A DNA stretch of 51,689 nt. Source: Candidatus Zixiibacteriota bacterium. Lineage in GTDB: Bacteria; Zixibacteria; MSB-5A5; WJJR01. Where the stretch lies: the NCBI GenBank assembly GCA_036397555.1, contig DASWIS010000021.1:1-51689 (forward strand), written 5' to 3'. This document shows, in pieces, positions 10,099 to 43,130 of this stretch. The translations under genes and the position numbers were made by a program. The notes under the pieces were generated by a model. It was not told where the DNA came from. It did not search any database and was given only the letters and a program-made list of their open reading frames with translations. Position 1 is the stretch's first letter. Each line of letters starts with the position of its first letter.

Positions 10099-10228
10099 TT
10101 CGGCTACTCCAGCCCTCTATGCCAATGGAGGAGGGCAGGAACGGCAAACCAGCGTCTTGTGGCGAGCACGGTCGAGCCACAGCCAATCCGCTTAATCATT
10201 CTTTCGCTGGAGAAAGGACACACGTCGT

Positions 10229-10444: not shown

Positions 10445-10457
10445 GGCACCAGCCGGC

Positions 10458-10481
10458 GCAGGCGGCGGCTCATCCGCCTGC
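10458..10481. other. Hairpin between the two small genes
   Basis: GCAGGCGG (10458-10465) pairs with CCGCCTGC (10474-10481) around an eight-base loop. It starts 14 bases after the stop of the 71-residue gene and lacks a T-run; it may set the relative expression of the second gene. Confidence 0.4.
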
Positions 10482-10511
10482 ACTCAACTTATCAGCTAAT
10501 CGGTATCACGT

Positions 10512-10631
10512 ATGCGCAAAACCTACCACTCACCAAGCCTCTGGGCGTATCTCATCAAGGATTTCGTCGAGTTCGGAGTCGGAGCCACAATCATTCTTGG
10601 ATTGCTACTCCTTCTCAAGGGCTGGGTCTAA
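10512..10631 (+). CDS. Predicted 39-residue membrane miniprotein
   Basis: The ATG at 10512 opens a 39-codon frame ending at TAA 10629-10631. The product has an N-terminal polar part (RKTYHSPSLWAYLIKDFVEF) and one membrane helix (GVGATIILGLLLLLKGW). No strong ribosome binding site is visible. Support comes from the protein-like composition, from the position between the 71-residue gene and a terminator whose stem begins inside the last codons, and from the absence of any other explanation for the stretch. Function unknown. Confidence 0.5.
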   Translation: MRKTYHSPSLWAYLIKDFVEFGVGATIILGLLLLLKGWV

Positions 10632-10657
10632 AACCCAGCCCTCTTGCCCTTTTTTTG
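10619..10657 (+). terminator. Rho-independent terminator after the small-gene pair
   Basis: GGGCTGGGT (10619-10627) pairs with ACCCAGCCC (10633-10641) around a five-base loop; an eight-base spacer leads into seven T residues. The stem overlaps the stop codon of the 39-residue frame. Confidence 0.75.
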
Positions 10658-10693
10658 CTCGCGGAACATCTGCCCGCCCTATATGAGATCCTC

Positions 10694-13270
10694 TTAGTTT
10701 GAAGGCTTAGCCATCTCTATGCTCCGCTCCTCTGGGAGGCCAAACACTTTGGGATTGAGATACCGGCCCCGCAGATCACTCTCCTTCTCTTCTTCAACTA
10801 TAACTGGGTTTTGCAATGCCCATGCATCTTTCCGCACGCCGTACACGACCCAATGGAACCTCTGATCTGGATTCCCGTCTGCGAGACGCACAACAAATGA
10901 GTTCCCCGCTACTTCTTCAGCATACAATGCTGAGTAGCCTCCAACACATGTTAGTGAGACAGTTGGATCGGAGTTCAATGCGGAAAAGTAACTCGGCAGC
11001 TCCACCGTTGCCACGCCTCCATGAAGCTCTCCCGCCCCGCGATAAATATTCAACATCTCCGGAGATTCTGCAAAACTGTGACTGAGATACTTGTTTGCAG
11101 GGTCAAGTGGGTGATCAATCTTGAACGTCCCCGAACTCTTCGACAGTGCTCCATTTACGTGCACTTTTCCGTTGAAATACCCCGCATAACCCGTTGTCGA
11201 CCTACCCCACAACCCATACGCAAGTGTCCCATTGTCACACCTCCCTGTTACACCAGTCCCATCTGTTCTGCCAGTGTATCCATATGCACCATCTACGGCG
11301 GTGCTAAAACCTTCAACGGCCGATGCGGGTACTGCATAATTGATATTCCCGGCTGTAATTGCCGCCAATGTCACGTCTGCTGAGGTTGAAATGTGAGAAC
11401 TGCCGATTGCACCACTCTGAATCATTGACGACGTGATTGAATTGGATTGCCCCTCGTTTACATATCTGTTTGTGAGCGTCGAGGTGCCCTCGTACAGATC
11501 TGAGACCACGTTAAAGCGTCCGTAATCCGTTGCGACATTCACAAAATTCGACCCGTCGATTCCGTCCAGTTTGTCCGCATTCAAGTTGACGCAGACCTGC
11601 CCATTGCTGATCGGAATCGTACTTCCCGCATTTCCGGGGAGGTATCCCCCGAGCTGCTCCGAGTTCTGGATGCTTCCGATAATGGTATTCTGAACCGTGA
11701 GACTGCCGCCATTGACTTGGACGTTTCCTTCAAACAATCCAGCGTAACCGGATGGACTCTGACAGTGCAGTGCGGTGCCTCCGTTTGGCGCATTAATCCC
11801 GACTGCATCACCAAGGCCCTCCAGCACTACGTCGAGCACCTTTCCTCCAACGTAACCCACGAAGAAGGCAGCCAATGGGCCGATGGCTGCAGCTGAGTCC
11901 GCGTCTTTCGTGAGCGGCCCATCACGTCGTAGCTCAAGTCCGCCAGTGGCGTTCAATGGATACAGAGCGTTCGGAACCTGATTCCGAGAAGCAGGTATAC
12001 CACTTATCGAGTCTGCATTCGGAACAACAATTGTAGGAGATAAGTCCTCTGTCTGAATTGTATAATTCTGGATCTTGTCGCTTGTCACGGCTTGTGGTCC
12101 CAACTTTGCGTTCGTGACAGATGCGTCCAAGAGCTTTCCTGTAGTCACGCTTCCCTCGGCAAGTTTCACATTTGTAACACTGTTATCGGACAGCTTTCCG
12201 GTGTTCACGGCTGCATCAGCCATCTTCTCTGTGGTCACTGCCCCGTCAGAAATCTTTCCATTCGTGACCTGCAAGTCTGCGATCTTAGCCTGCGTAACAG
12301 CACCCGTCGCCAGATCAATGGAACTTACAGCCCCGTCCGCGATTTCAAGCGAGCCGACCCCCGGAGTAATAGGTCGTACCAATGGCGCAGAACCAGCATA
12401 GTCGGCTGAATCTGAGTACGGCGCCTTGAAGCTTGTTTCGACGTCTGTGCGTTGAATTGACCCATCAATAATCTCACTTGATCCGACTGAATTTGTACCT
12501 AACACCGGATTCGGGTAAGACCCACTGAGGTCTCCTCCAGCCGTTCCAATGGGCGGCGCGGCATCAGCATGGTCAGCTGAGTCGGAATGCGGGGCTTTAA
12601 AGTCCACCGCCACATCAATGCGCTCAATGGATCCATCCAGCAATTCGGCGGATGAAATCCCAGGACTTATTGGTCTCGAAAGCGCAGCTGCCGAGGCGTA
12701 ATCCGCTGTATCAGCACGTGGAGCCTTAAAGCTCGCGGAGACATCCGACGACTGGATTGATTGGTCTGCGATTTCCAATGACCCTACCGCGTTGGGCGCA
12801 AGGTCTGGATTCGGGTAAGAGCCATTCAGATCACCTCCCGCCGGACCTATTGGTGAAGCGCCAAGAGCAATATTGGCTGAGTCCGCGCCAAGCGCGTACG
12901 GCCCCGAGGTCAATGGGATTCGCCCGGGGAATACCACCGGGGCGACAATTCCTGGCCCACTTCCTATCTCGATTTGAAGATAGTACTGCTGATTGAAGGG
13001 GACGTCCAAGGGAGTCGAGTTGCCCAGGGCTATGCTGAATAATCCGTCAACCACACCGACGGCGGCTTGGTGCTCGCTCCAAATCGGGGTCCCTCCACTC
13101 GGCACGGTGAACAGATCAAGGTCCATTTCGTATGAGCCGTTCTGAAGTGCCTGGCCCGTCGTGTCAGTCAACCTTCCCTGCACACTCAGCGTACGAGGCA
13201 TTTCAGCCTTGGCGAAACCACACACGAACACCACTGTGGCCGCAACAGCAAGCGTCACAACGCGTCTCAT
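10694..13270 (-). CDS. Secreted repeat-rich fibre-like protein
   Basis: 858 residues with a clear signal peptide (MRRVVTLAVAATVVFVCGFA, cleavage after AKA) and a good ribosome binding site (GGAGGGA) eight bases before the ATG. An N-terminal beta domain (LSVQGRLTDTTGQALQNGSY) is followed by about four 40-residue repeats with the pattern GSxEIxDGSIQxxDVxxSFKAP and SDSADYA, then about six ten-residue repeats (VTTEKMADAA, VNTGKLSDNS, VTNVKLAEGS and so on), as in phage-tail-fibre or trimeric-adhesin stalks. The C-terminal 150 residues (DPANKYLSHSFAESPEMLNIY, VELPSYFSALN, VYGVRKDAW) form a conserved module seen at the end of many environmental secreted proteins. A surface fibre or adhesin is the best guess. 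Its DNA is visibly more AT-rich than the flanking genes, which suggests transfer. A promoter candidate lies at 13344-13371. Confidence 0.75.
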   Translation of the reverse strand: MRRVVTLAVAATVVFVCGFAKAEMPRTLSVQGRLTDTTGQALQNGSYEMDLDLFTVPSGGTPIWSEHQAAVGVVDGLFSIALGNSTPLDVPFNQQYYLQIEIGSGPGIVAPVVFPGRIPLTSGPYALGADSANIALGASPIGPAGGDLNGSYPNPDLAPNAVGSLEIADQSIQSSDVSASFKAPRADTADYASAAALSRPISPGISSAELLDGSIERIDVAVDFKAPHSDSADHADAAPPIGTAGGDLSGSYPNPVLGTNSVGSSEIIDGSIQRTDVETSFKAPYSDSADYAGSAPLVRPITPGVGSLEIADGAVSSIDLATGAVTQAKIADLQVTNGKISDGAVTTEKMADAAVNTGKLSDNSVTNVKLAEGSVTTGKLLDASVTNAKLGPQAVTSDKIQNYTIQTEDLSPTIVVPNADSISGIPASRNQVPNALYPLNATGGLELRRDGPLTKDADSAAAIGPLAAFFVGYVGGKVLDVVLEGLGDAVGINAPNGGTALHCQSPSGYAGLFEGNVQVNGGSLTVQNTIIGSIQNSEQLGGYLPGNAGSTIPISNGQVCVNLNADKLDGIDGSNFVNVATDYGRFNVVSDLYEGTSTLTNRYVNEGQSNSITSSMIQSGAIGSSHISTSADVTLAAITAGNINYAVPASAVEGFSTAVDGAYGYTGRTDGTGVTGRCDNGTLAYGLWGRSTTGYAGYFNGKVHVNGALSKSSGTFKIDHPLDPANKYLSHSFAESPEMLNIYRGAGELHGGVATVELPSYFSALNSDPTVSLTCVGGYSALYAEEVAGNSFVVRLADGNPDQRFHWVVYGVRKDAWALQNPVIVEEEKESDLRGRYLNPKVFGLPEERSIEMAKPSN

Positions 13271-13343
13271 GTCACTTCCCTCCGAGTGAACAGCGGTTCA
13301 CGTAAGCCGAAGTGCTCTCCGGCGCAGGAGCTCTTGTGCCTAA

Positions 13344-13371
13344 GGTATAGTTCATGACCCGACCAATTCAA
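13344..13371 (-). promoter_or_regulatory. Probable promoter of the fibre-like protein gene
   Basis: Read on the minus strand, TTGAAT (13371-13366) and TATACC (13349-13344) are 16 bases apart, each matching four of six consensus bases. The start codon lies about 75 bases downstream. Confidence 0.5.
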
Positions 13372-13450
13372 GGGCCGTGCGGAAACTCAAAGGGGAGATT
13401 CTGCGAGTAGGCTACGGCTTGAGATTTTGCCCACGAGCATTTCATGTGCG

Positions 13451-14033
13451 CTATGCCGTTTCAACTGGCACCCCCAAATTAATCAATCGGAACACCATCG
13501 CCTCAAGGCTTACACGATAGCGGGACGCCAGCGGTTTTATTTCTGTGAGACTCCGAATCGGCATCAGGATGTTCTGTCTCTCCATGTCCTGAAAGAGTAG
13601 ACTCTGTGGCATCAAGGAGGGTAGCAGCGAACCGATTCGCCTCAATCTCCTGAGGATCGTTTGCAAGCGACGACACCTTGTCTCGGAAAAACTTCTTGCC
13701 TGTTTCCGTTTCTGCGGGCTTTGAAAGCCCCGCCGTGTATTGCCGATCGATGTACACTGCCCCGTCGTGCAACACGAGATGTCCCAACTCGTGCGCAATT
13801 GTAAATCGCTGCCGAAGCGGGTTCTCGTTCTTGTTGATCCCGATCACGCACAATCCCTCACGGCGATACAATGCTCCGGAGAGATCACCCTGGTACGGCT
13901 CCTTCCGAACGGTCGCACCGAGAGCACGAGCAACACGATCAACAGGGATCGGCGGCGTGTCCAGCCCCAGATCCTTGAGAATCTTCTCGACCCGATTCTC
14001 TATCCGTTCCTGCCCCATCGTCGACTTCGCCAT
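13451..14033 (-). pseudogene. ImmA/IrrE-like metallopeptidase gene with a one-base frameshift
   Basis: From ATG 14033 the frame encodes an ImmA/IrrE-family zinc peptidase: an N-terminal helical part (IENRVEKILKDLGLDTPPIP), the active site AHELGHLVLH (H81, E82, H85) and the third ligand in EIEANRFAATLL (E131). After residue 140 this frame turns into unrelated sequence ending at 13503. The expected family continuation appears in the neighbouring frame immediately after: MPQSLLF ... LASRYRVSLEAMVFRLINLG, ending at TAG 13451. Removing the single base at 13613 joins them into one protein of 193 residues, the usual family size. The lesion leaves the catalytic domain intact and loses only the C-terminal helices, so a truncated enzyme could still be made. 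A real mutation, a sequencing or assembly error and programmed slippage cannot be told apart here. Family members often act as regulators or antitoxin-like partners. Confidence 0.8.
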
Positions 14034-31777: not shown

Positions 31778-32641
31778 TTACAAGGCAAAGCTCAATTTGA
31801 AGACGTAGCGGCGCGCGCCGGCGTTATCCGTGGCGTCGCCGCCAGTCTCATAGGAGAAATGATAATACAATTCGGCCAATGCCGCACCGACTGCCGCGCC
31901 GACGGCGACGTCGGTAAAGTAATGACGGTCGGCATGCAAACGCGACAGCGCGACGATGCCCGCCCAGCCGAATGAGATGGCCGGTGAGAGCCAACGGCCG
32001 GTCTCATACTCGTCGCGTCTCCACTCACTGCGCATGTGGCGGCGGAACCGCTTGTTAAAAAAAGCCGCCGCGAAGAACGCCGTGGACGAATGGCCGGAGA
32101 AAAACGAGCGCCGGTGGTCAGGATCCCCTGGTTCCAAACCCGGCGGGAATTCAGCGCCGGCCGCGCGGTAGGGGCGTTCCCGTTGCACGAACGACTTGCC
32201 GATGCGAGTCAGTCCCGCCGTCGCCGCCCAACCCGATAAAAACATCGGGATGTCGCGGGAGAATTCGCGTCGGTCCGCATCGATTGCCGCCACTCCGATC
32301 GCAGCCATGGTGGGGGTCAGGACGCTGCCGAAACGGTTATCCAGAAAGTTGGAGCGCCATTCGTCGCCGGGGTGAATCGCGTTTCGCATGATTCGGTCGA
32401 GCGGGTTGAGTCGGAACTCCGACGCCGATTCGATCGCCGTTTCCGACCGTGGCAGGAAGTACCCCAGGAGGCAAACCGAGGCCGACGCGCCGATGATCAG
32501 CGCTTCCTCGCCATCACTCAGATCGCGCAGGTTGCTCTCTGCGTGAGCGAGCGGAGCGCTCGCCATCACGATGGCAAGCAGCCATACGGCGGGGCCACGC
32601 CCGGACAGGCAGCGAGCGGGCATCGTGGGCGGTAAGCACAT
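31778..32641 (-). CDS. PAP2-family membrane phosphatase
   Basis: 287 residues from the ATG at 32641 (an ATG at 32623 is possible; the frame reaches 32749 but that would run into the divergent promoter). A signal-like first helix (AVWLLAIVMASAPLAHA) is followed by the three PAP2 motifs: KSFVQRERPYR, FFSGHSSTAFF and SRLHADRHYFTDV. These form the vanadate-haloperoxidase-like active site of lipid phosphatases such as PgpB or undecaprenyl pyrophosphate phosphatases. The polar spacing and signal point to action on the outer side of the inner membrane. Substrate unknown. Confidence 0.88.
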   Translation of the reverse strand: MCLPPTMPARCLSGRGPAVWLLAIVMASAPLAHAESNLRDLSDGEEALIIGASASVCLLGYFLPRSETAIESASEFRLNPLDRIMRNAIHPGDEWRSNFLDNRFGSVLTPTMAAIGVAAIDADRREFSRDIPMFLSGWAATAGLTRIGKSFVQRERPYRAAGAEFPPGLEPGDPDHRRSFFSGHSSTAFFAAAFFNKRFRRHMRSEWRRDEYETGRWLSPAISFGWAGIVALSRLHADRHYFTDVAVGAAVGAALAELYYHFSYETGGDATDNAGARRYVFKLSFAL

Positions 32642-32704
32642 GCGGCATCCGGAAAGCGATCCGGAAGGCGACAATCGCGACAAGGACCCCTGGATGCAAA
32701 GGAA

Positions 32705-32734
32705 TTGTACAGCAGAACCCGCCCGCGGTATATT
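32705..32734 (+). promoter_or_regulatory. Possible promoter of the transporter/two-component run
   Basis: TTGTAC (32705-32710) and TATATT (32729-32734) are 18 bases apart, with the start codon at 32789. The -10 box matches five of six bases, the -35 only three. Confidence 0.45.
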
Positions 32735-32788
32735 AGATCGTTTCCTCACGATGCCGGATCAACTCCCCGCCGCGCCACCTTCCAGACT

Positions 32789-35560
32789 ATGTCATCCTGG
32801 TTGAAAGGGTTCCTCGACGTCCGGGAGGGAGAGCGTGCCGGCACGGCGGCGATGTTCGTGTACATCCTCCTGGTGATTGCGGTCCTGGTGATCGTCAAGT
32901 CGGTCCGCCAGGCGCTGTTCCTGCAGAGCTTCGGCGCCGCCAGTCTGCCGTATGTCTACCTGTTGATCGCCTTCGTGGCCGGGGGTGTGGCGGCGTTGTA
33001 CCAGCGCTTTTCGCGCAATGTCGCCGTCGGACGGCTGATCGTCGGCACGATGCTCGTGTTGGTCGCCAACCTGGTTGTGTTTCGCTGGCTGGTCTCCTAT
33101 GAGTGGGGTGCGCTGGCTTATGTGCTCTATGTATGGGTCGGCGTCTACGGGATTCTCGCGACCGCGCAATTCTGGATGCTCGCCAACTACGTATATGACC
33201 CGCGTCAGGCGAAGCGTCTGTTCGCCTATCTCGGAGTTGGCGCAACGCTCGGCGGCATTGTTGGCGGCTACGTCACCCAATACGGCGCGGGACTGGTCGG
33301 CACCGAGAATCTGCTGTTGATCGGGGCCGCGCTGCTGGGCGGATGTGCCGCGTTGGGCGTCTATCTCGCCGCCAGCCAAAAGAAGGCCATTGTCGAAGCG
33401 GCGCGCGCCAAACGATTCAAATCATCTTCGGTGGAGCAGACCGCCGGAGGGTTCCGGCTGATTTGGCAGTCGCGATATCTGAAACTGGTGATGGTGATCA
33501 TCACGCTGAGCATCATCATCGCCACCGTCGTCGACAACCAATTCTCGTTCGTTGTCGAGGAGCATATTCCCACCAAGGACGGCAAGACCGCATTCTTCGG
33601 GCAGTTTTTCACGTGGCTGGGATGGATTGCGTTTCTCACCCAGTTTTTCCTGACCGGACGGCTGTTGCGTCGCTTCGGCGTCGGCCTGACAATGGCCATA
33701 CTGCCATGGGCGATGTTCCTCTCCTCGGGCGCATTCGTTCTGTTCCCGATGATGGCAACCGGTGTGGCGATCAAACTGGCCGATGGCACCTTTCGTTACA
33801 CGACGCACAAGGGATCGTTGGAACTCTTGTATCTTCCCATCCCCATCGTGGTTAAGAACAAGACCAAAGCGTTCATCGACATGTTCACCGACCGCTTTTC
33901 CAAGGGAATTGCGGCGCTCCTGGTGCTGCTGATGACATCGGCGCTGGGTTTTCACTATGGCGCTCTCTCGTGGGTACTGATGGGATTGTCACTTGTCTGG
34001 GTGGGCGTGACCATTCTGGCGCGGCGCGAATACGTTGCGGCGTTTCGCGACTCGCTGCTGCGTCGACGCATCGACGAGGACGCGCTCATCATCTCGCGGA
34101 CCGACGCGGCAACGGTTGGCGCGCTGGCCGAATCGCTCGACCGCGCACAGGGTGCCTCACTGTCCCGTGCCCTCGACCTGGTGACCGGCGTGCGCTCGTC
34201 GCTGCTCATCGCGCCCTTGATCCGCATCGCTCACGCATCCGACTCCGCCGTCGCCTGTCGAGCGCTGGATCTGCTGGCCGAGCAGGAAGGTGACATTCCC
34301 GTCGATCAATTGCGCGATCTGCTTGATTCCGACGAAGTGGAAGTCGTCGGGCGGGTCCTGCGCTTGTCCTGCCGCGACGCGGGCAATGTCTCACCGTTGA
34401 AACTGGGGCTCTATTTCGCCGACGAGCGGCCGCAGGTTCGTCTGGGCGCGATCATGTGTTCGCTGGTGTGGGGCGGCGCCGCCGGCGACATGATCGATCC
34501 CGAAGCATTGGAGCAGTTTCTGCTGGATTCGGCGACACCGCAGCAAGCCGGGCAGATGGAGCGGATGCTCGCCAAGTTGCTTCGGGTCCTGCCGGTTGCC
34601 GATGGGACCGCCGAACGGTACATCCTGCGGTTCCTGAAGAGCGACGATCCGGCGCTGCGAGGCGAAGCGATCGCGGCGGCGGGGCGCCTGAAACCCCGCT
34701 GCCTGGTCGAACCGCTGATTGCCGTCTGTGCGGATCGTCGTGTGCGGCATCGCGTCCGCGATGCGCTGGCTGCCTATGAAGAGGCCGCGTTGGGCACGCT
34801 GGAAGACTATCTGCGCGATGAGGCGACGGACCGGCGCGTACGGCAATACATTCCACGGATTCTCGAACGCATCCCCGTGCAGCGCTCGGTCGATTCGCTG
34901 GCGGCCATGCTCGAGGATCCCGATGAACGCGTCCGCTTCTCGGCGCTGCGAGCGCTGGGGCGACTGCGCGCGTCTCACTCCGAACTGGATTACGCCAATG
35001 AGCGCGTCGAGCGACGACTCGGCGAGGAAATCCGCAAGGCGTATCGTTACCAGGGGTGGTTGTTGGCCAGCGCGGACGGCGAGCGGAGTTTGCTCTTGCG
35101 CAAGACACTCCGTGAGAAGTCGCACAAAACGCAGGATCGTGTCTTTCGCCTCCTGGCCATGAAGCATCCGCCGGCCGAAGTGTACGCGGCGTCGCGGGGG
35201 CTGCTCTCGCCCAATGCCCGCATCCGTGCCAATGCCGTGGAGTATCTCGACAACTTGCTGGTTGCGCCGCAAAAGCGTTGGGTCTTAGGGCTGGTCGAAG
35301 ACCGCCCGTCACGCGACGCGGTGTCGCGCGCACTGCGGGAATTCGGCGAGACTCTGGACGACCGTCGGGAGGCGTTGACACGGCAGGCATCGGGCGACGA
35401 TGACTGGCTGGCGGCATGCGCGCTGTATTCGATCTGGGAGGAACACGAGCGCTCGTTGTATCATCTCATTACCCGCGATGTTGCCTTGCTGCCCGCCGGG
35501 CGCTTTGCCCTCACGCGGGAGACGATGCAGGCGCTGCGCGGACGTGTCGCAGCCGAATGA
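32789..35560 (+). CDS. ADP/ATP-translocase-like (Npt/NTT) transporter fused to HEAT repeats
   Basis: 923 residues from the ATG at 32789; the frame opens at 32705 inside the promoter region. Residues 1-420 form about twelve membrane helices of the nucleotide-transporter/MFS type (AGTAAMFVYILLVIAVLVIVK, YVLYVWVGVYGILATAQFWM, GVGATLGGIVGGYV, DGTFRYTTHKGSLELLYLP). Residues 450-920 are soluble, leucine- and arginine-rich helical pairs of HEAT-repeat type (DSDEVEVVGRVLRLSCRD, DPDERVRFSALRALGRLRAS). In many environmental bacteria this fusion continues into a cyclic-nucleotide-binding domain; here that domain is the next gene, 63 bases on. The transported molecule in such proteins is not established. 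It opens the signalling run to 40068. Confidence 0.85.
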   Translation: MSSWLKGFLDVREGERAGTAAMFVYILLVIAVLVIVKSVRQALFLQSFGAASLPYVYLLIAFVAGGVAALYQRFSRNVAVGRLIVGTMLVLVANLVVFRWLVSYEWGALAYVLYVWVGVYGILATAQFWMLANYVYDPRQAKRLFAYLGVGATLGGIVGGYVTQYGAGLVGTENLLLIGAALLGGCAALGVYLAASQKKAIVEAARAKRFKSSSVEQTAGGFRLIWQSRYLKLVMVIITLSIIIATVVDNQFSFVVEEHIPTKDGKTAFFGQFFTWLGWIAFLTQFFLTGRLLRRFGVGLTMAILPWAMFLSSGAFVLFPMMATGVAIKLADGTFRYTTHKGSLELLYLPIPIVVKNKTKAFIDMFTDRFSKGIAALLVLLMTSALGFHYGALSWVLMGLSLVWVGVTILARREYVAAFRDSLLRRRIDEDALIISRTDAATVGALAESLDRAQGASLSRALDLVTGVRSSLLIAPLIRIAHASDSAVACRALDLLAEQEGDIPVDQLRDLLDSDEVEVVGRVLRLSCRDAGNVSPLKLGLYFADERPQVRLGAIMCSLVWGGAAGDMIDPEALEQFLLDSATPQQAGQMERMLAKLLRVLPVADGTAERYILRFLKSDDPALRGEAIAAAGRLKPRCLVEPLIAVCADRRVRHRVRDALAAYEEAALGTLEDYLRDEATDRRVRQYIPRILERIPVQRSVDSLAAMLEDPDERVRFSALRALGRLRASHSELDYANERVERRLGEEIRKAYRYQGWLLASADGERSLLLRKTLREKSHKTQDRVFRLLAMKHPPAEVYAASRGLLSPNARIRANAVEYLDNLLVAPQKRWVLGLVEDRPSRDAVSRALREFGETLDDRREALTRQASGDDDWLAACALYSIWEEHERSLYHLITRDVALLPAGRFALTRETMQALRGRVAAE

Positions 35561-35623
35561 TTGCCGTCTCTGATTGACGGGCACCGATCCCGACAGGTGA
35601 ACCTTGGCCCCAGGACCATCCCA

Positions 35624-36064
35624 ATGCTGACGACCATCGAACGAGTTCTCGCCCTGCAAAAGAATGAGATCTTTGCCGAGGTTTCGACCGAAGGACTGGC
35701 GCATTTGGCGGCGATCGCGCACGAGGTCGAGTTTCAGCCCGCAGAATGGTTGTTTCACGATGGGGAAATCCCCGACGCCTGCTACCTGATTCTGGCCGGC
35801 ACCGTAAGCATGACACGTGCCGGACAGACGGAGCTGTCCGTCGGCCCCGGCGAGGATATCGGTGTGTGGGCGCTGTTTGACGGCGAACCGCGCGTGTTTG
35901 CAGCGCGCGCCGCATCGAATACACACGCGTTGAAAATCGAACGTGAAGACTTTTATGATCTGCTGGCTGATCACACGGATATCATCCAGACGCTCTTTCG
36001 CACCATTGTGCGCCGCATCCGTCGTCTGCTCGAGGAACGCGGCGTCGTTGCCGGGCCCGGGTGA
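35624..36064 (+). CDS. Cyclic-nucleotide-binding domain protein
   Basis: 146 residues from the ATG at 35624; the open frame back to 35561 starts at a TTG and looks non-coding. The CAP/CRP-type beta roll is visible: LQKNEIFAEVSTEGLAHLA, EWLFHDGEIPDACYLILAGT, VGPGEDIGVWALFDGEPRVF and the C-helix LFRTIVRRIRRLLEERG. The phosphate-binding cassette (GEDIGVWALFDGEPR) lacks the usual E-x2-L-x2-RSA pattern, so cAMP binding is uncertain. There is no DNA-binding domain. It lies between the HEAT-repeat transporter and the histidine kinase and probably senses a ligand for one of them. Confidence 0.85.
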   Translation: MLTTIERVLALQKNEIFAEVSTEGLAHLAAIAHEVEFQPAEWLFHDGEIPDACYLILAGTVSMTRAGQTELSVGPGEDIGVWALFDGEPRVFAARAASNTHALKIEREDFYDLLADHTDIIQTLFRTIVRRIRRLLEERGVVAGPG

Positions 36065-36088
36065 TAGGACGATGGCATCAATGTCCTG

Positions 36089-38278
36089 ATGCATACCATG
36101 TTTCAACGTCTGCTGTCGCGACTCAATCTGTACGCCCCGCATCGCGCCGAACGCGATCCGGGGTTCGCGCAGTACCTCGCGGAAACCACGCGCCGAGGCA
36201 TGCGTCTGGGTGGTGTCCTGGGGATGATCGGCCCGCCCATCTACGCCTTTGGGACGGCACTTGCCCTGCATTGGGACATGACCATGTCGGTCGATGCCAG
36301 GAGCGGCACGCTGGCTGTGTGGGTCCCGTTGAGTGCCAGCGCGGTCGGCATCGCGATTCAGGGGCTGTCGTTCTGGCCGCGCGCGGTCCGATGGGGGCGA
36401 CCGATCGTGGGCGTCGCGCTGATGGCGATCGCGTACCTGTCGAGTCTGGAATTTGCCGCAGCGGGTGTGCACCATCCTTCGAAGTTTGGCATCCTGAGTC
36501 TGCTGATGCTCGTCGGCATCAGCACGATGCCCTTTCGCGCCTGGCAGACGACGATCCTGGGGTTTCTCCTGATGATGACGTACGGCCTGACCGCGCTGGT
36601 GATTCCCGGGCAGCACGGACATAACCCGCTGGACGTTTTTCCCGAACTCCCCGTCTTCATGTTGACGCTGACGGTTATGTGCGCCGGGATCAGCGCCCTG
36701 CTGTACAGCATCCGACACCGCGACTATACGGTGCGCCGTGAGGAGGAGTCTCTGCGCCACAAGCTGCAGGATTCCGAGCGGCGGTATCGTTCCATTTTCG
36801 AGGATTCGTCCGACGGGTTGTTCGTTTACAGCGAGGCGACATCGGGGTTCCCGCTGGTCAACGCCGTGACCGAACACATCCTGGGACGGTCCGCGGAGGA
36901 GCTGGCGGCCACGCACTTTTCCAAGGTGATTCATCCCGACGATTTGGCACGTGTTGCGGGGATTCACGCGGCGCGCGTGCGGGGTGAGCCGGCGCCCTCG
37001 CGCTACCGGCTCAAACTCAAACGCCCCGATGACGACGCGCCGGTCATCTGCGAGATGACCATCCACACGACCGGCGATCCCTCGATCACCGCCGGGGCGC
37101 TGCGCGACATCACCGCCCAGGTCAAACTGGAAGAGGAAAACGCGCAGTTGGCGCAGCTTTCGGAGACCAACCCGTTTCCGGTGCTGCGCTTCGACGACAT
37201 CGGGGGCCTGCTGTACATGAATCCCGCCGCCCGCCGGTTCCCTTCGGAGATCGGGCATCCGGAAGCATCGATCACCGATCTATTGCCGCCCGACTTTGAG
37301 CGGCGCATCGCGCGGTTGATCGAGTCGGACACGACAGTGATCGATGCGCGCCACGACTTCGACGACCGGGTCTTTTCGATCACATATCGGCCGCTGCCGG
37401 CGACGCGGGAGATATTCGTCTGGATCGTCGACGCGACCGAGCGCACTCGCGCCGAGGAGCAAATCCGCGCGTATGCCTTCCAACTGGAGCAGGCCAATCA
37501 GGAGTTGCGTGAAGCACAGGCGCAACTGGTCCAGTCGGAGAAGATGGCGGCGCTGGGCAATCTCGTGGCGGGCGTCGCCCATGAGATCAACACGCCGCTG
37601 GGTTCGATCCATGCCAATGCCGACGTGTCGCGTCGTGCGCTGGAACTGCTGGCCGCGGTCGACTCAGGCGGCGGCGACAACCAGCGAATGGCGCAGGCCG
37701 TGCGTATCCTGACGGAGTCGAACGAGACGACACGCACAGCCAGCGAAAGGATCATCCGAATCGTCCGGTCGCTGCGCAATTTCGCGCGTCTGGATGAAGC
37801 CGAATTCAAGGACGTCGATCTGCACGAGGGCATCGAATCCACCCTCACGTTGGCGCATCACGAATACAAGAATCGCATCGAAATCGTCAAGGAATACGGG
37901 TCGCTGCCGCCGGTCCGCTGCAATCCCAACCAGATCAATCAGGTCATTATGAATATCCTGGTGAATGCGATTCACGCCATCCATGACAAGGGGACGATTA
38001 CGATCCGGACGTCCGCCGATTCCGACGGTGTCCATGTTGCCATCAGCGACACCGGGGTCGGGATTCGTCCCGAATATCTGCCGCGCATCTTCGACCCGGG
38101 ATTCACCACCAAGGGCGTCGGCGTCGGCACCGGTCTGGGACTGTCGATTGTTTACAAGATCGTTCAGTCGCATGGCGGCAAAATCGATGTGAAAAGCCAG
38201 CCAGGAGCCGGGAGCACCTTCACGCTCACCCTCCCGGTGGGTTCGGCGAAGCGATCCATCGACGGAGAGGGAACTTGA
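36089..38278 (+). CDS. Membrane PAS histidine kinase
   Basis: 729 residues. About six N-terminal membrane helices (residues 38-210, for instance LGGVLGMIGPPIYAFGTALAL and LPVFMLTLTVMCAGISALLY) replace a periplasmic sensor. Two PAS domains follow (SERRYRSIFEDSSDGLFVY near 225; SETNPFPVLRFDDIGG near 360), a coiled coil, the HisKA box GVAHEINTPLGSIHAN with phospho-acceptor H498 and the ATPase lobe (NQVIMNILVNAIHAI, SDTGVGIRPEYLPRIFDPGF, GTGLGLSIVYKIV). The ATG at 36098 is an alternative start. Its stop overlaps the TTG start of the receiver-phosphatase gene by four bases, so that protein is the likely partner. The C-terminal domain resembles the family of kinases that pair with multi-receiver circuits. 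Confidence 0.93.
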   Translation: MHTMFQRLLSRLNLYAPHRAERDPGFAQYLAETTRRGMRLGGVLGMIGPPIYAFGTALALHWDMTMSVDARSGTLAVWVPLSASAVGIAIQGLSFWPRAVRWGRPIVGVALMAIAYLSSLEFAAAGVHHPSKFGILSLLMLVGISTMPFRAWQTTILGFLLMMTYGLTALVIPGQHGHNPLDVFPELPVFMLTLTVMCAGISALLYSIRHRDYTVRREEESLRHKLQDSERRYRSIFEDSSDGLFVYSEATSGFPLVNAVTEHILGRSAEELAATHFSKVIHPDDLARVAGIHAARVRGEPAPSRYRLKLKRPDDDAPVICEMTIHTTGDPSITAGALRDITAQVKLEEENAQLAQLSETNPFPVLRFDDIGGLLYMNPAARRFPSEIGHPEASITDLLPPDFERRIARLIESDTTVIDARHDFDDRVFSITYRPLPATREIFVWIVDATERTRAEEQIRAYAFQLEQANQELREAQAQLVQSEKMAALGNLVAGVAHEINTPLGSIHANADVSRRALELLAAVDSGGGDNQRMAQAVRILTESNETTRTASERIIRIVRSLRNFARLDEAEFKDVDLHEGIESTLTLAHHEYKNRIEIVKEYGSLPPVRCNPNQINQVIMNILVNAIHAIHDKGTITIRTSADSDGVHVAISDTGVGIRPEYLPRIFDPGFTTKGVGVGTGLGLSIVYKIVQSHGGKIDVKSQPGAGSTFTLTLPVGSAKRSIDGEGT

Positions 38279-39492
38279 GCGGCAAAGACCGGCGGCCCTC
38301 AGCGGTCATGATTGTCGACGACGAGGAGATCGTCACGCGTTCGATCGCCAATCTGCTGGCACTGGAGACCGACTACAAGACGCTGCCGTTCCAGCAACCC
38401 CGCGAAGCGTTGGACGCTGTGCGACGCGAACGGATCGACTGCGTCATCACGGACTTCCTGATGCCGGAGATGGATGGGCTGGAGTTTTTGCGTCGGCTGC
38501 GCCGGATGGCGCCGGACGTGCCGGCGATCATGCTGACCGGATATGCCGACAAGGAAAGCGCCATTGCGGCGGTCAATGAGGTCAATCTCTACCAGTACCT
38601 GGAAAAGCCCTGGGACAACGATCATCTGCAACTGGTGATCCGCAACGCGGTCAGCCACCGGACGCTCCAGCAGGAACTGGTCGAGCGCCTGCGTGAATTG
38701 GATTCGGTCCTCAAGGATCGGGACACGTTGCGGCTGACGACGGAACACATCGAACAAGAGCTGGCGCTCGCGCAACAGGTGCAGCAGTCGATTCTGCCGC
38801 GTGACCTCGACGGCGCCGGAGCGGTCCGGTTCTACCACCGTTACTACCCCACCGGACGGCTTGGCGGCGATTACTTCGATGTCATCTTCACGGGTGAGAA
38901 TCGCTTCAATGCCATTGTCAGCGACGTGGCGGGCCATGGGGTCGCTGCGGCCTTGGGGACAATGCTGGTCAAAGTGATTTTCGCCGACGCCTCGCAGCGT
39001 GGCCTCGGCTGCTCCGAAATGCTCATCGAGATGAACGACCGTCTCGTGCGATTCCTCCCGCAACAGCAGTTCGTCACCGCCTTCGTTCTGCAGGTTGATC
39101 TGGACGCCGGTATCGTCTCCGCCGCATCGGCGGGCGGGCCGCATCCGATCATCCTGGGCTCCGGGAACGGCGTCCCGGTCGAACAGTGGCATCTCAACGG
39201 TCTGCCGCTGGGTGCTTTCAACCGAGACATTTTCCGCGAGCCGGAGGCGCAATCACGACCGTTGCGGAGCGGCGATCGCATACTTCTCTATACCGACGGT
39301 TTGCTGGATGTCGAGATCGAATCGGGGCAGTCGCGCGAGCCGCACGAAATCGCCGCCTTTGTGGACGGCTTGCGGAATCATCGCGGTGAGGAGTTTTTGG
39401 AGCGGCTGGTGGACCGTTGCGGCGCTCGACGGTCCATGCTTCCCGATGACATCAATCTGCTGCTGATCGAGGCACAGGATCGTCCGCGATGA
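38275..39492 (+). CDS. Response regulator with PP2C (SpoIIE/RsbU-type) phosphatase output
   Basis: 405 residues starting at TTG 38275, with GGAGAGGGA just upstream and a TTGA overlap with the kinase stop. The receiver domain (1-125) has D60 (CVITDFLMPEMDG), LTGYAD and EKPW. A coiled coil near 140-170 leads into a SpoIIE-type phosphatase domain (170-405) with QQSILPRDL, GGDYFDVIF, SDVAGHGVAAALGTM, SAGGPHPII and DRILLYTDGLLDVE. Such proteins dephosphorylate anti-sigma-factor antagonists in partner-switching; no such STAS or RsbW gene is visible here. Its receiver is strikingly similar to that of the next gene. Confidence 0.94.
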   Translation: MSGKDRRPSAVMIVDDEEIVTRSIANLLALETDYKTLPFQQPREALDAVRRERIDCVITDFLMPEMDGLEFLRRLRRMAPDVPAIMLTGYADKESAIAAVNEVNLYQYLEKPWDNDHLQLVIRNAVSHRTLQQELVERLRELDSVLKDRDTLRLTTEHIEQELALAQQVQQSILPRDLDGAGAVRFYHRYYPTGRLGGDYFDVIFTGENRFNAIVSDVAGHGVAAALGTMLVKVIFADASQRGLGCSEMLIEMNDRLVRFLPQQQFVTAFVLQVDLDAGIVSAASAGGPHPIILGSGNGVPVEQWHLNGLPLGAFNRDIFREPEAQSRPLRSGDRILLYTDGLLDVEIESGQSREPHEIAAFVDGLRNHRGEEFLERLVDRCGARRSMLPDDINLLLIEAQDRPR

Positions 39493-39582
39493 GTCCGGCG
39501 GCCGTTGACTCCCGGTCATCGTTCGACTATCTTCGTTCGCGATTTCGATATTGACATCCGGTGCGCCAAGAGAGAATTCACA

Positions 39583-40068
39583 ATGGACATCAGCACAAAT
39601 GACCACCGTGTCGTCGCCGTCGTCGACGATGAGCCGATGGTCCTGCAGAGCATCAAGAACTTCCTGAATCTGGAAACCGACTACGAAGTGCTCACGTACA
39701 CATCGCCGAAGTCGGCGATCGACGGGCTTCGCGAGCAGCCCGTGGATGTCATCATCTCCGACTATCTCATGCCGGAGATCAACGGGATTGAGTTTTTGTT
39801 GCAGATGAAGGAAATGCAGCCGCAAGCGACGCGCGTCCTGCTCACCGGCTATGCCGACAAGGAAAACGCGATTAAGGCCATCAACGACGTCGGACTGTAT
39901 CAGTACATCGAAAAGCCCTGGGAAAACGAGGACTTGCGCCTGGTCATCCGCAACGCGATCGAAAAGCGCATGCTGCTGAAACGCCTCTCCGAAAAAGTCG
40001 CCGAACTGGACCGCGCCTCGGCCGCCTTAAAGGGCGTCTATTCCGACCTGATGAAGGCCTTCAAGTAG
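39583..40068 (+). CDS. Stand-alone receiver protein
   Basis: 161 residues from the ATG at 39583; AAGAGAG precedes it, and the longer frame from 39505 lacks support. The receiver domain carries VVDDEP, phospho-acceptor D60 (VIISDYLMPEINGIEFL), the threonine of LLTGYADKENAIKAI and lysine in YIEKPWENEDLRLVIRNA. A C-terminal helix (residues 125-160) probably forms a coiled coil. Without an output domain it may act as a phosphate relay or competitor. The alignment with the previous protein's receiver is nearly gap-free with the same 60-residue spacing to the aspartate, pointing to local duplication. Confidence 0.92.
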   Translation: MDISTNDHRVVAVVDDEPMVLQSIKNFLNLETDYEVLTYTSPKSAIDGLREQPVDVIISDYLMPEINGIEFLLQMKEMQPQATRVLLTGYADKENAIKAINDVGLYQYIEKPWENEDLRLVIRNAIEKRMLLKRLSEKVAELDRASAALKGVYSDLMKAFK

Positions 40069-40077: not shown

Positions 40078-41403
40078 ATGGGTCTGTTCCGGCGCGCACG
40101 TCGTTCGCACGGTCACCCGGTTCTGTGGCCGTTGTGGGCTGTTTTGCTCGTCTCATTCACTCCGGAACTTGCGACTTCAGCCGGCGAGACGGATTCGTCA
40201 CGTACGTCAGGAGCATCGCGCTCCCGGCACGACGCGCTCGACTATGTCTTTGCCGTCCCCAGTTTTGCCCTGCAGCTTCCCTTCCGGGTGTTCGGAGTCG
40301 TGGTTTCCGGGCCGGTCAAGCTCGTCGAGGACCAGGACTTTCTCGAATCGCTGAAGTCGGTTTTCTCCTTCGACGTGCCCTTCGGCCTCCGACCCGTAGT
40401 CGGATCGTCATCGCGCACCGGACTGCGCGGCGGGCTTCAGTACCGGGCACGAAGCGCACTGGCCACCGGTGTTCCGCTGCGTCTGAAGGGGACCATCTCG
40501 ACGAATCGATACGAGTTTTTGTCGCTGCGAATCGGCGGCCCGAGTCTGTTCGAGTCGCCGTTCGGAATGCAAGGGGAGATCGGAGCACGACGCGACACGC
40601 GCGAGCGCTACTACGGTTACGGACCGTCGTCCTCGGCCGACGATGAATCCAACTACGAACGGCGGGGCGGCTTCGGCAATGTGCGCGGTTTCTGGCAGAT
40701 TACCGATGCGCTGGCGGCTGAAGGATTCGGTGAATACCGTCATGTGACCCCCGGCGACGGGCGCGGAAGGACAACGATCGGAGAACGCGATTCGATCGTT
40801 GCCCGCTTTCCCGACGACGACCTTTTCGGACTGTATGCCACGCTCGACCTCCACGAATTCGGCGGCGCGGTCGTGCTCGACTGGCGCGACATCAAGGGCT
40901 CGCCGCGTCGCGGCGGGCGCGATGAACTGCGAGTTTCCTACGTCGGCGGTGATGGCCCCGGCGACACGACCGTCGGGTTTTGGCGCATTCGCGGTGAGGT
41001 CTCCCAGTACATCGAGTTGTGGCGCGGGCGCGTATTCGGTCTGCGCGCGGCCGCACAGCATCTGGAACCGGGCAACGGCACCCGAATTCCGTTTTACGAA
41101 CTCTCACGGTTGGGCGGCTCCAACTCTCTGCGCGCCTACCGCAGCGGACGTTTTACGGGGCGGGACATGGTGCTCTTCTCCGCCGAGTACCGATGGCCAG
41201 TGTGGCGGGCGATCGACGCCTTTCTGTTTACCGATCAGGGACGTGTCTTCGACGATATCTCCGAGGATTTTGAGTTTTCCGGTTTCCGCTCCGCCTACGG
41301 CGGCGGGCTGCGCGTATGGAATACAGGCGGCCATCTGGAGTTGACGCTCGCCAAGGGACGTGAGCAGTTTCGTTTTTACCTCGCAGCGGGTGAGGAGTTT
41401 TGA
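40078..41403 (+). CDS. Omp85/BamA-like outer-membrane beta barrel
   Basis: 441 residues with a signal peptide (WPLWAVLLVSFTPELATSA). There is no POTRA domain; the N-terminal 60 residues (YVFAVPSFALQLPFRVFGVV) precede 16 or so predicted strands. The end is characteristic of the Omp85 superfamily: ELSRLGGSNSLRAYRSGRF, FSAEYRWPVWRAIDAFLFTD, GGGLRVWN and a final strand. The last codons overlap the next gene (TGATG), so this barrel and the kinase-like lipoprotein are co-translated. A secretion or anchoring role for that partner is plausible but unproven. Confidence 0.82.
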   Translation: MGLFRRARRSHGHPVLWPLWAVLLVSFTPELATSAGETDSSRTSGASRSRHDALDYVFAVPSFALQLPFRVFGVVVSGPVKLVEDQDFLESLKSVFSFDVPFGLRPVVGSSSRTGLRGGLQYRARSALATGVPLRLKGTISTNRYEFLSLRIGGPSLFESPFGMQGEIGARRDTRERYYGYGPSSSADDESNYERRGGFGNVRGFWQITDALAAEGFGEYRHVTPGDGRGRTTIGERDSIVARFPDDDLFGLYATLDLHEFGGAVVLDWRDIKGSPRRGGRDELRVSYVGGDGPGDTTVGFWRIRGEVSQYIELWRGRVFGLRAAAQHLEPGNGTRIPFYELSRLGGSNSLRAYRSGRFTGRDMVLFSAEYRWPVWRAIDAFLFTDQGRVFDDISEDFEFSGFRSAYGGGLRVWNTGGHLELTLAKGREQFRFYLAAGEEF

Positions 41404-43130
41404 TGAGGCGGGCCACGCATCGCTTCGGAGTCGTAGCCGGAGGGATTGTGTCCGCCGGCATTCTCCTGGGCGGCTGCGCGTCGAGTCGGCCTTGGAGTCT
41501 GGAGCCGCCCCCTGCTGAGCAGAGTGAGATGCGGCCATTGCCGTCGGAGCCGTCGGAACGCGATCCGAGTCTCTATTGGGACGCGGTCAACCAAAGCTCG
41601 TTTTACCTGGTCGAAAACTCGCTGAACCTGGGCCGCCAGACCCGCAAACTCACCGGAAGTACGAAGGACGCGCACAATGCCGATGCGTGGGGCAATGTCC
41701 CCAACTCCGCCTGGTTTACCAATCGTCATGGCTCCAATCGCATGACACCCGATGAAATCCTGCGCGGCCCCAACACCATCGATGGTCCCGATACGACCCA
41801 CCCGTGGACGATCACCCGCGCCAAGACCGAAGGCGTAACCCCGGGGTTCTTCGCGCAGGACTCAAACGGCGTAACGTTCATCATCAAGTTCGACCCTGAT
41901 GGACATCCCGAACTGGCGACCGGGGCGGAAATGATCTCGACAAAGTTTTTCCATGCCTGCGGCTACAATGTCCCGGAGAATTACATTTCAGTTCTCGATC
42001 CGAACACGATACGCTTCAAAGAGGGTCTCGAGTATGCCGACCAAGGGGGCAATCGCAAGCCATTCACGCGCGATGTCTTAAACGAGGTTCTGCAGACAGT
42101 CGCCCGGCGCCCCGATGGCAAGGTGCGGGTCGTGGCCAGCCGGTTTCTGCCGGGAACACCGATTGGCCCATTCTCGTACAAAGGCACGCGCAAAGACGAC
42201 CCCAATGATTTCATCAATCATCAGCACCGGCGCGAATTGCGTGGTTTGAAGGTTTTGGCACAACTGGTCAACCACTACGACACCAAGGACCACAACACGC
42301 TGGATATCATCGCCGACGACGGCAACGGGCCGTACGTGCGTCACTACCTGATCGATTTCGGCTCGACGCTCGGCTCGGATGCGGACGAGCCCAAGCCGTC
42401 CTACAAGGGATACGCCTACACCCTCGACCTGGAGCAGGCGGTCGTCTCGCTCTTCACGCTTGGGCTGCGCCAGTGGTCTTGGGAGGAGGCATCATCGAAG
42501 GGGATGCCGCCGGCGGTAGGGTATTTCGAAAGCGAACGCTTCACCCCGCCGGGATGGAAGCCGCTGCACGCCAATCCCGCATTCGACAATGTCGACGACG
42601 AGGATGCCTATTGGGGCGCGCGCATCGTCGGTGCGTTTACCGAGGACGATCTGCGCGCCTGCGTTAAAGCGGCTGAGTACAGTGATCCGGCGGCGGAAGA
42701 GTATCTCGTGAAGACATTGATGGAGCGCCGCCGCAAGATTCTCGACTACTACTACGGCAATGTCAGTCCGCTCGATGCGTTTGCCATATCGCAAGAGGGT
42801 GGCGCGCTGGCTTTGTCGTTTGTCGATCGGTTCATCACCGACGGCCTGACGTCGGAGAACGCAGAATTCCGATACCGCGTCGGACACAAGGCCGGGTCGT
42901 GGGGATCGTACATATCGTTGTTGTCGGGTACATCGCTCACCCTCGACCAGAGCGCCGAACAGAAGATCGCCAATGCGCTGCAGTCCGCGCAGACACCAGA
43001 TGACCGCGTGTTCAACATTACGCTCCAAGCCCGTCATAACGGCCGTTGGCACAAGCCGGTTCGCGTCTACTTCTACTACGACGGGACGCCTGCGTCGGCA
43101 CGTCTTGTCGGCATCGACTGGGACGCATAG
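41403..43130 (+). CDS. Lipoprotein with atypical kinase-like catalytic motifs
   Basis: 575 residues from the ATG at 41403, overlapping the barrel gene's TGA. A lipoprotein signal ends in ILLGGC. The chain has elements of a protein-kinase-like (HipA, FAM20C or CotH type) fold in the right order: K162 in FIIKFDPDG (nucleotide lysine), an acidic helix TGAEMISTKFFHACGY, a catalytic-loop-like NHYDTKDHNTLDI with D293, D296 and N298, and LIDFGSTLGS with D318 of the DFG-like metal site. The asparagine-to-DFG distance of 20 residues fits that fold. The remainder (330-575) is helical, with a C-terminal beta part. The family was not recognised by name; kinase activity is inference. An extracytoplasmic kinase coupled to an outer-membrane barrel would be unusual. 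Confidence 0.6.
   Translation: MRRATHRFGVVAGGIVSAGILLGGCASSRPWSLEPPPAEQSEMRPLPSEPSERDPSLYWDAVNQSSFYLVENSLNLGRQTRKLTGSTKDAHNADAWGNVPNSAWFTNRHGSNRMTPDEILRGPNTIDGPDTTHPWTITRAKTEGVTPGFFAQDSNGVTFIIKFDPDGHPELATGAEMISTKFFHACGYNVPENYISVLDPNTIRFKEGLEYADQGGNRKPFTRDVLNEVLQTVARRPDGKVRVVASRFLPGTPIGPFSYKGTRKDDPNDFINHQHRRELRGLKVLAQLVNHYDTKDHNTLDIIADDGNGPYVRHYLIDFGSTLGSDADEPKPSYKGYAYTLDLEQAVVSLFTLGLRQWSWEEASSKGMPPAVGYFESERFTPPGWKPLHANPAFDNVDDEDAYWGARIVGAFTEDDLRACVKAAEYSDPAAEEYLVKTLMERRRKILDYYYGNVSPLDAFAISQEGGALALSFVDRFITDGLTSENAEFRYRVGHKAGSWGSYISLLSGTSLTLDQSAEQKIANALQSAQTPDDRVFNITLQARHNGRWHKPVRVYFYYDGTPASARLVGIDWDA

Follow-up and report, generated by a model that had tools for sequence, protein, structure and literature searches.

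Nucleotide transporters (NTTs) extended by HEAT repeats have been described by Major et al. 2017 (PMC5381601), both as NTT-HEAT and as NTT-HEAT-cNBD proteins, the latter bearing out the original prediction that in other genomes the cNMP-binding domain (cNBD) is fused to the transporter. According to that survey, many free-living bacteria carry NTT-HEAT proteins, with their function stated to be unknown and none assigned as of 2017, and the NTTs characterised from parasites are nucleotide importers (PMC5381601). Some NTT-HEAT genes are directly followed by a stand-alone cNBD gene, and the two are taken to form one operon (PMC5381601); this pairing is therefore already in print. The main text of the survey contains none of the terms "kinase", "periplasm", and "response regulator" and thus draws no link to a receiver or a kinase-fold lipoprotein (PMC5381601).

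Our search of the open-access literature on NTT structures gave no match, and no link between NTT-HEAT and a kinase or receiver was found in the open-access literature. Another publication (PMC6995639) reportedly names NTT-HEAT as well. Here, we describe a locus from a little-known bacterial group in which an NTT-HEAT transporter is accompanied by signalling genes and a putative envelope kinase, and the co-inheritance of transporter and predicted kinase suggests how nucleotides might be provided outside the cytoplasm.

Parts of the locus

The window, a stretch of 51,689 nucleotides (contig DASWIS010000021.1), comes from a Zixiibacteriota genome, and its contig was searched by profile along with the other contigs of that genome. 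A Pfam search of the open reading frames places five genes one after another on the + strand at 32789-40068, and all five parts of the predicted operon-like run are present in the expected order. The prediction was right about these genes and too narrow in stopping at 40068, thereby missing the Omp85 and kinase-fold lipoprotein genes, which belong to the system and are its more informative neighbours.

31778..32749, - strand: PAP2-superfamily phosphatase, divergent and accessory (Pfam PF01569, 69.1 bits)
32789..35560, + strand: nucleotide transporter of the NTT/TLC type, 923 aa, ending in HEAT repeats (Pfam PF03219 and HEAT_2)
35624..36064, + strand: cNMP-binding-like (cNBD) protein, 146 aa (Pfam PF00027, cNMP_binding, 58.2 bits, cut-off 27.5)
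36089..38278, + strand: membrane PAS histidine kinase, 729 aa (Pfam PAS, PAS_4, HisKA, HATPase_c)
38275..39492, + strand: REC-PP2C (SpoIIE-type phosphatase), an optional member (Pfam REC 91.2 bits, SpoIIE 112.8 bits)
39583..40068, + strand: stand-alone receiver (REC) with a C-terminal helix-like tail (Pfam REC 90.5 bits)
40078..41403, + strand: Omp85-superfamily outer-membrane barrel (Pfam PF01103, 68.1 bits)
41403..43130, + strand: lipoprotein with a predicted kinase-fold domain and a C-terminal FnIII-like domain (AF2 model, lipobox Cys, catalytic residues)

The likely starts of the cNMP and lone receiver genes are ATG 35624 (not 35561) and ATG 39583, respectively. With its listed TTG start, the REC-PP2C gene overlaps the histidine kinase gene by 4 bases, and the Omp85 stop codon overlaps the lipoprotein ATG (41403). 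Sigma-70 promoter-like sites (5, against 3.2 in shuffles) and terminator-like sites (9, against 8.5) occur at about the shuffle frequency, and we therefore claim no transcript boundaries.

The transporter belongs to the NTT/TLC family of Pfam (PF03219, 39.2 bits, cut-off 21), and its profile matches the solved ATP/ADP carriers 9j3n and 9j3j (E 2e-25 and 5e-20), the alignment being strong from residue 100 on, weak before it, and leaving the HEAT part uncovered. HEAT repeats follow the NTT domain and the cNBD gene lies directly downstream, the domain order reported by Major et al. (PMC5381601). The window transporter scores 50.1 bits against the NCBIfam NTP/NDP exchanger model TIGR00769, well short of the cut-off of 387.2, which counts against a role in nucleotide supply. 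Four charged residues, K155, E245, E385, and K527, are presumably needed in plant NTT1. By a hand-derived numbering offset to the solved chain, E385 is replaced by Asp in 21/21 sequences and K527 corresponds to Lys or Arg in 14/21, while E245 is mostly Ser and K155, in a weakly aligned region, is hydrophobic. As two of the four charges are not kept, the substrate may differ. The direction of this predicted transporter could be import.

Next to it, the cNMP-binding-like domain is encoded, as anticipated, by a gene of its own with a PF00027 match. We take a Glu and an Arg to make up the canonical phosphate-binding cassette; in our alignment, the Arg is kept in 28/28 sequences and the Glu in 0/28, with Val in the window protein. 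With the Arg kept and the Glu lost, this is not a canonical cNMP-binding domain.

Gene order and co-inheritance

Gene order was compared across the phylum in 32 further genomes that carry NTT-HEAT; G065 and G074, transporter-positive in the co-occurrence counts below, carry only HEAT-less NTTs and are therefore not among the 32. In some of these genomes (G004, G073, G127), the end of a contig truncates the transporter gene, and for G127 the downstream contig (L033) alone was used. The cNMP ortholog directly follows NTT-HEAT in 32/32 relatives, and the REC ortholog lies at most 8 kb downstream in 28/32, with two of the exceptions attributable to the end of a contig. A related histidine kinase occurs downstream or just upstream of NTT-HEAT in 21/32, PP2C in 11/32 (two of the 21 relatives without it are represented by contigs ending early), a PAP2 homolog within the fetched locus in 15/32, and the exact five-gene order in only 4/32. 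In the named loci, an Omp85 gene directly precedes the lipoprotein gene in 30/31 testable cases. Frequent breakage of the order had been put forward as the result that would overturn the original prediction, and the outcome is mixed: the NTT-cNMP pair is unbroken and the NTT-REC association largely kept, whereas PP2C, the histidine kinase, and the exact order are not.

Co-occurrence was counted across 132 genomes. Transporter and lipoprotein are both present in 31, one without the other in 4 + 4, and both absent in 93 (Fisher p 1.6e-21, the genomes not being independent), so that they occur jointly in 31 of the 39 genomes carrying either. For transporter and receiver, the counts are 31 with both, 4 and 2 with one only, and 95 with neither (p 1.8e-23, again with non-independent genomes). 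The lipoprotein gene is far from NTT-HEAT or on another contig in G026, G033, G034, G051, G064, and G115, and the receiver gene is away from it in G026 and G030; joint presence in such unlinked genomes means that co-inheritance holds without linkage.

Behind the named NTT-HEAT loci not labelled Zixiibacteriota are 50 genomes, some labelled only "bacterium" and of unverified phylum, and 41 of these carry the lipoprotein. This set leaves out L129, L138, L144, L147, and L148 from the 55 named loci chosen; the other 25 of the 80 named loci were outside the choice, 24 as Zixiibacteriota (by label or shared contig) plus L100. In a comparison draw of 296 genomes from the phylum holding Salinibacter, with at most 4 and 3 candidates per genome scored, the lipoprotein was found in 7, two of them already known carriers, and the full gene lies within 2 kb of NTT-HEAT in 6 of the 7 genomes with a strong NTT-HEAT (at least 760 bits). 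Several observations count against a role in nucleotide supply: the lipoprotein is missing from 9 of the 50 genomes above; NTT relatives occur without it in 24 of the 30 match-bearing genomes of the draw, including a single strong NTT-HEAT and another seven that score 590-673 bits; and, conversely, G095, G096, and G098 carry it but have no TLC-family gene, and G328 has a single 388-bit copy but no NTT match.

The rarity of the exact five-gene order and the coming and going of the histidine kinase and PP2C would fit genes that are neighbours by chance, or share only their expression, without a common function. We consider this very improbable, given the constancy of the cNMP and REC orthologs, the high-scoring orthologs in several phyla, and the persistence of co-occurrence where the genes are unlinked. 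For NTT, cNBD, REC, and the lipoprotein, conserved order and co-occurrence leave a chance neighbourhood strongly disfavoured, and we reject it for these four, but not for PP2C or the exact order.

Signalling genes and partner switching

Five hydrophobic segments before residue 200, together with the PAS, HisKA, and HATPase_c matches, agree with the multi-helix PAS kinase that had been proposed. The lone receiver, highly conserved in the alignment and with no output domain found by Pfam, represents a dedicated ortholog family, with matches at E<=1e-40 in 33/132 genomes, 31 of which have the transporter. The REC domain of REC-PP2C is the sole other REC in the genome to match the profile of the lone receiver at this level.

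The PP2C output had been read as a sign of partner switching. On that reading, the target of dephosphorylation by REC-PP2C would be a STAS anti-anti-sigma factor whose gene is elsewhere, and the run would be an operon of convenience. The protein shares its REC-PP2C architecture with RsbU and Pseudomonas RssB, carries what we take to be the expected PP2C motifs, and weakly matches the full-length RssB model (101.6 bits, cut-off 700). Moreover, STAS and RsbW-like genes, for which a search of the full genome had been proposed, do exist in it, and a different PP2C has one such pair within 2 kb (C8:214731-217803), but none is at the locus. Indeed, all six STAS matches are on contigs other than that of the window, and the window contig yields two matches to the RsbW model (HATPase_c_2), both of which fall short of the cut-off and correspond to the ATPase domains of histidine kinases. 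The statement that no STAS or anti-sigma gene is visible thus holds within the window, in contrast to the partner-switching systems of RsbU and RssB. Among the 12 genomes with this PP2C (the window's included), several with contigs of only 8 to 11 kb in this check, 61 STAS positions were listed and none is near the cluster, the nearest on the same contig being 54 kb away. REC-PP2C is also the weakest of the six PP2C matches in its own genome, and its counterpart was not found in most relatives, as detailed above. Partner switching as the output of this run is therefore not supported and, on the contigs available, appears improbable.

The predicted kinase-fold lipoprotein and a proposed nucleotide supply

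The window lipoprotein has no Pfam or NCBIfam match, and its profile retrieved no relative among solved structures by sequence, apart from one match at chance level (E 0.9). Its AF2 model (pLDDT 90.8) predicts a HipA/CtkA/Fam20C-like kinase fold. The best Foldseek matches are CtkA (5.1e-5) and Golgi casein kinase (6.6e-5), and VIA aligns the model with CtkA (Z 14.7, rmsd 4.3, 234 aligned), Fam20C (Z 13.6, rmsd 3.8, 252 aligned), PI4KII-alpha (Z 12.7, rmsd 4.7, 244 aligned), and CotH (Z 12.1, rmsd 4.4, 236 aligned). Ranks 1-33 are all kinases (Z 14.7 to 9.1), and the next rows (Z at most 8.6) match the C-terminal domain. Among the catalytic residues of this predicted fold, Lys148, Asp279, and Asp304 are present in 30/30 lipoproteins, Asn284 in 29/30, and Glu156 in 27/30, and the lipobox Cys is found in 29/30. 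Matches to Pfam HipA_2 and HipA_C are not significant (best E among the 30 members 0.028 and 0.034), with faint signals in 5 and 3 members. Unlike CtkA, the best structural match, and HipA and HipT, the protein is a predicted exported lipoprotein without a Pfam match. Fam20C (Golgi casein kinase) and the spore-coat kinase CotH act outside the cytoplasm; their identity to the lipoprotein is about 10%, and here the fold comes with an FnIII-like tail and a partner gene for an Omp85 barrel, in which Pfam found no POTRA domain.

We give a probability of somewhat under 40% to a reading in which, under two-component control, the transporter carries nucleotide over the inner membrane to serve a kinase outside the cytoplasm, with the receiver gating the HEAT/cNBD platform. 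The five-gene run would then make up half of a larger envelope system, the part concerned with the inner membrane and signalling. NTT-HEAT would move nucleotide over the inner membrane, most probably ATP in exchange for ADP, AMP, or phosphate, and the lipoprotein, made with its partner barrel, would phosphorylate an envelope or surface target, the accessory phosphatases (PAP2 and metallophosphoesterase) likewise acting on that side. The histidine kinase may phosphorylate both the lone receiver and the closely paralogous REC of REC-PP2C, and the receiver would act on the cytoplasmic HEAT/cNBD platform of the transporter rather than on DNA, thereby gating transport. A narrower version, in which ATP exported by NTT-HEAT into the periplasm supplies the Fam20C/HipA-fold kinase, and perhaps further secreted proteins with nucleotide-binding folds, the RelA-like X6 among them, with the receiver gating through HEAT/cNBD, we regard as doubtful.

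X6, an accessory secreted protein found in 12/34 clustered sequences, is absent from the window and encoded on contig C16 of the same genome. The N-terminal half of its model (pLDDT 78.2) is similar to synthetases of the RelA type (CapRel as the best Foldseek match, 1.2e-7; VIA against 6fgk_C, Z 13.5, rmsd 2.9, 138 aligned), with a weak match by sequence (E 0.0037). The usual catalytic Glu of these enzymes lies, we assume, five positions before a conserved Thr; it is present in 0/10 X6 sequences, and we therefore claim no activity for X6.

The same surroundings could instead serve nucleotide or phosphate scavenging, with the barrel, metallophosphoesterase, PAP2, and transporter working in uptake or salvage from outside, the lipoprotein binding or modifying nucleotides, and the two-component genes sensing supply. 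The recurrence of two phosphatase families (PAP2 and metallophosphoesterase) in the cluster fits this, as does the X6 copy in the window genome, which adjoins porin O/P, pst-like ABC genes, and phoU after a PhoB/PhoR-like pair, and the characterised parasite NTTs do import nucleotides (PMC5381601). Scavenging nevertheless leaves unexplained why almost all of the 30 lipoproteins retain a full set of kinase catalytic residues, and in another genome (L047) the cluster adjoins zinc-type ABC genes instead, so that the phosphate link rests on one genome; we judge this alternative rather unlikely. Anti-phage defence was also considered and dropped, PADLOC having returned weak matches to HEAT and REC only (19.3 and 18.7 bits) and none to the lipoprotein or barrel.

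Returning to nucleotide supply for an envelope kinase, the co-inherited, predicted extracytoplasmic kinase offers a concrete, testable role for NTT-HEAT and bears on the source of ATP for a bacterial kinase outside the cytoplasm. If ATP is indeed exported, the widespread NTT-HEAT proteins would do the opposite of the energy import of parasites. The system is open to testing in named strains, as the barrel, lipoprotein, and transporter genes are adjacent in Fodinibius roseus (L134), Fodinibius salsisoli (L132), and Salinibacter altiplanensis (L142).

Gene order around the transporter

The five genes of the original prediction are all present, in the named order and on the forward strand. They start with a transporter of the NTT/TLC type carrying C-terminal HEAT repeats (NTT-HEAT), and the kinase and receiver-PP2C genes overlap by 4 bases if the listed TTG start is used.

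32789-35560, +: NTT-HEAT transporter
from 35624 (probable ATG start), +: cNMP-binding-like domain (cNBD)
36089-38278, +: PAS histidine kinase
38275-39492, +: receiver-PP2C
39583 (probable ATG start) to 40068, +: lone receiver
40078-41403: Omp85 barrel, after a 9-base gap
41403-43130: lipoprotein, its start overlapping the barrel stop codon
upstream of the run, divergent: PAP2 phosphatase

Among named loci, the closest full-length match to the transporter (63%) carries the label Candidatus Zixiibacteriota. Searching 132 genomes of the phylum (E ≤ 1e-10), we found transporter matches in 35, the window's own included; of the other 34, two with only HEAT-less NTTs were excluded from the order count, and the remaining 32 loci were mapped with the window proteins over flanks as long as each contig permits. 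The cNMP gene lies directly 3' of NTT-HEAT in all 32 relatives, and a receiver ortholog follows within 8 kb in 28; the contig ends first in G061 and G122, and the ortholog is elsewhere in the genome in G026 and G030. By contrast, PP2C is found at 11 of the 32 loci, a similar histidine kinase at 21 (downstream in 11, within 1.5 kb upstream in 15), and the exact five-gene order in 4. Thus, NTT-HEAT, cNBD and receiver form a stable core, whereas kinase and PP2C are variable. Among 80 named loci with labels of many phyla, 52 of the 75 with room have the cNMP gene no more than 700 bases from the NTT end, and 45 of the 69 with 1.5 kb or more of downstream sequence have the receiver within 6 kb.

A published account (PMC5381601) already describes a cNBD encoded downstream of NTT-HEAT or fused to it, the fusion being the form originally named for other genomes. 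In the open-access literature, we found no account of the dedicated receiver, of the Omp85 barrel with a kinase-fold lipoprotein, or of their co-inheritance.

A barrel and a lipoprotein with a predicted kinase fold

Clustering of open frames and profile searches revealed genes that recur nearby. Besides the Omp85 barrel and the lipoprotein, these are PAP2, an upstream histidine kinase, a second NTT that lacks HEAT repeats, and a metallophosphoesterase or the secreted protein X6. Of the 32 relatives, 14 have the lipoprotein gene within the fetched locus, and among named loci the barrel gene is directly 5' of it in 30 of 31 testable cases. Six loci with labels such as Rhodothermales, Fodinibius and Salinibacter (L127, L132, L134, L140, L141 and L142) combine barrel, lipoprotein and NTT-HEAT without a receiver or cNBD ortholog, and a seventh, L139, has the cNBD and lacks the receiver; the signalling genes therefore seem to be an addition to that core. 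In three loci of one genus (L047, L048 and L049), an OmpR-type regulator follows the cluster, as do, by Pfam, a porin and a zinc-type ABC transporter in L047.

The window lipoprotein matches nothing in Pfam or NCBIfam, and 30 members of its family gave only faint HipA matches in Pfam. In the alignment, the lipobox Cys is kept in 29 of 30, together with a set of kinase motif residues (Lys148, Asp279 and Asp304 in 30/30, Asn284 in 29/30, Glu156 in 27/30). The structure was predicted with confidence (pLDDT 90.8, pTM 0.92), and its residues 112-441 resemble CtkA (Foldseek 5.1e-5; VIA Z 14.7, rmsd 4.3, 234 aligned). Fam20C (Z 13.6, rmsd 3.8, 252 aligned), PI4KII-alpha (Z 12.7), CotH (12.1), and HipT and HipA (about 11 to 9) are further VIA matches, while residues 441-561 bear a resemblance to FnIII-like domains (Z about 7 to 8.6). 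Such a shared fold, seen in a model, does not prove kinase activity.

Co-inheritance of transporter, lipoprotein and receiver

Transporter and lipoprotein occur together in 31 of the 132 genomes, the transporter alone in 4, the lipoprotein alone in 4 and neither in 93; for transporter and receiver ortholog, the figures are 31, 4, 2 and 95. The Fisher values (p = 1.6e-21 and 1.8e-23, respectively) overstate independence, because the genomes are kin. Within genus g2, G127 carries both transporter and lipoprotein, and G126 and G128 carry neither; several carrier genomes have the two genes at unlinked sites. Completeness is below 90% in all four transporter-only genomes. As for the lipoprotein-only genomes, the cluster of G092 begins at a contig start (receiver at C111:101), which may have cut off its transporter, and a search of G095, G096 and G098 found no TLC-family gene. 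The lipoprotein copies of these three form a lower-scoring branch; second copies of comparable score are present in several other genomes.

Among 50 genomes of named NTT-HEAT loci not labelled Zixiibacteriota, the lipoprotein is present in 41 and absent from 9. From the phylum of the Salinibacter locus, 296 genomes were drawn: 7 carried the lipoprotein (two of them previously known carriers) and 30 matched the transporter profile. Where NTT-HEAT was strong (≥760 bits), a full lipoprotein gene lay within 2 kb in 6 of 7 cases, whereas the remaining 23 matching genomes, including 7 whose NTT-HEAT is more distant (590-673 bits), had none, indicating that the lipoprotein is coupled to one NTT-HEAT branch and not to all. 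A Phycisphaerales MAG chromosome (L070) encodes an NTT that shares 65% identity with the window's transporter across residues 1-665, with an adjoining PAP2 gene; a search of this genome gave no lipoprotein match, and the NTT reflects either transfer or a chimeric assembly.

Regulators and a possible mechanism

The cNMP cassette keeps its Arg in 28 of 28 aligned sequences and its Glu in none, which makes canonical cAMP or cGMP binding unlikely. The lone receiver retains the acceptor Asp and adjoining signature residues, and Pfam detects no output domain in it. At E ≤ 1e-40, its profile matches just one other domain in the window's genome, the receiver of REC-PP2C (191 bits), and the two may therefore share one kinase. 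Partner switching, originally suggested by the PP2C, finds no support at the locus: all 12 PP2C-bearing genomes searched have STAS genes, none of them near the cluster within the contigs covered. A second phospho-signalling pair of the window occupies 7581-9969: an FHA-domain gene and, after it, a gene for a PP2C_2 phosphatase. The adjacent 10001-14000 has a GC of about 0.545, against about 0.61 in its surroundings, and contains an 858-aa open frame (10694-13270, reverse strand) with no significant Pfam family.

We favour a reading in which NTT-HEAT, as a putative nucleotide carrier, would supply the predicted extracytoplasmic kinase, and the receiver would act on the cytoplasmic HEAT/cNBD part of the carrier. 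Chief among its caveats, two of the four charges important in plant NTT1 are, at their presumed positions, not kept in NTT-HEAT proteins, and each partner also occurs without the other in some genomes. The main rival is a scavenging role for the cluster, which is supported by the neighbourhood of the X6 copy in the window's genome, where phoU, porin O/P and pst-like genes are found. On that contig (C16, locus L149, 492-9638), the X6-like secreted protein, a relative of which has a predicted RelA-type fold with the catalytic Glu not kept, adjoins phoU and is preceded by a PhoB/PhoR-like pair, porin O/P and the pst-like ABC genes.
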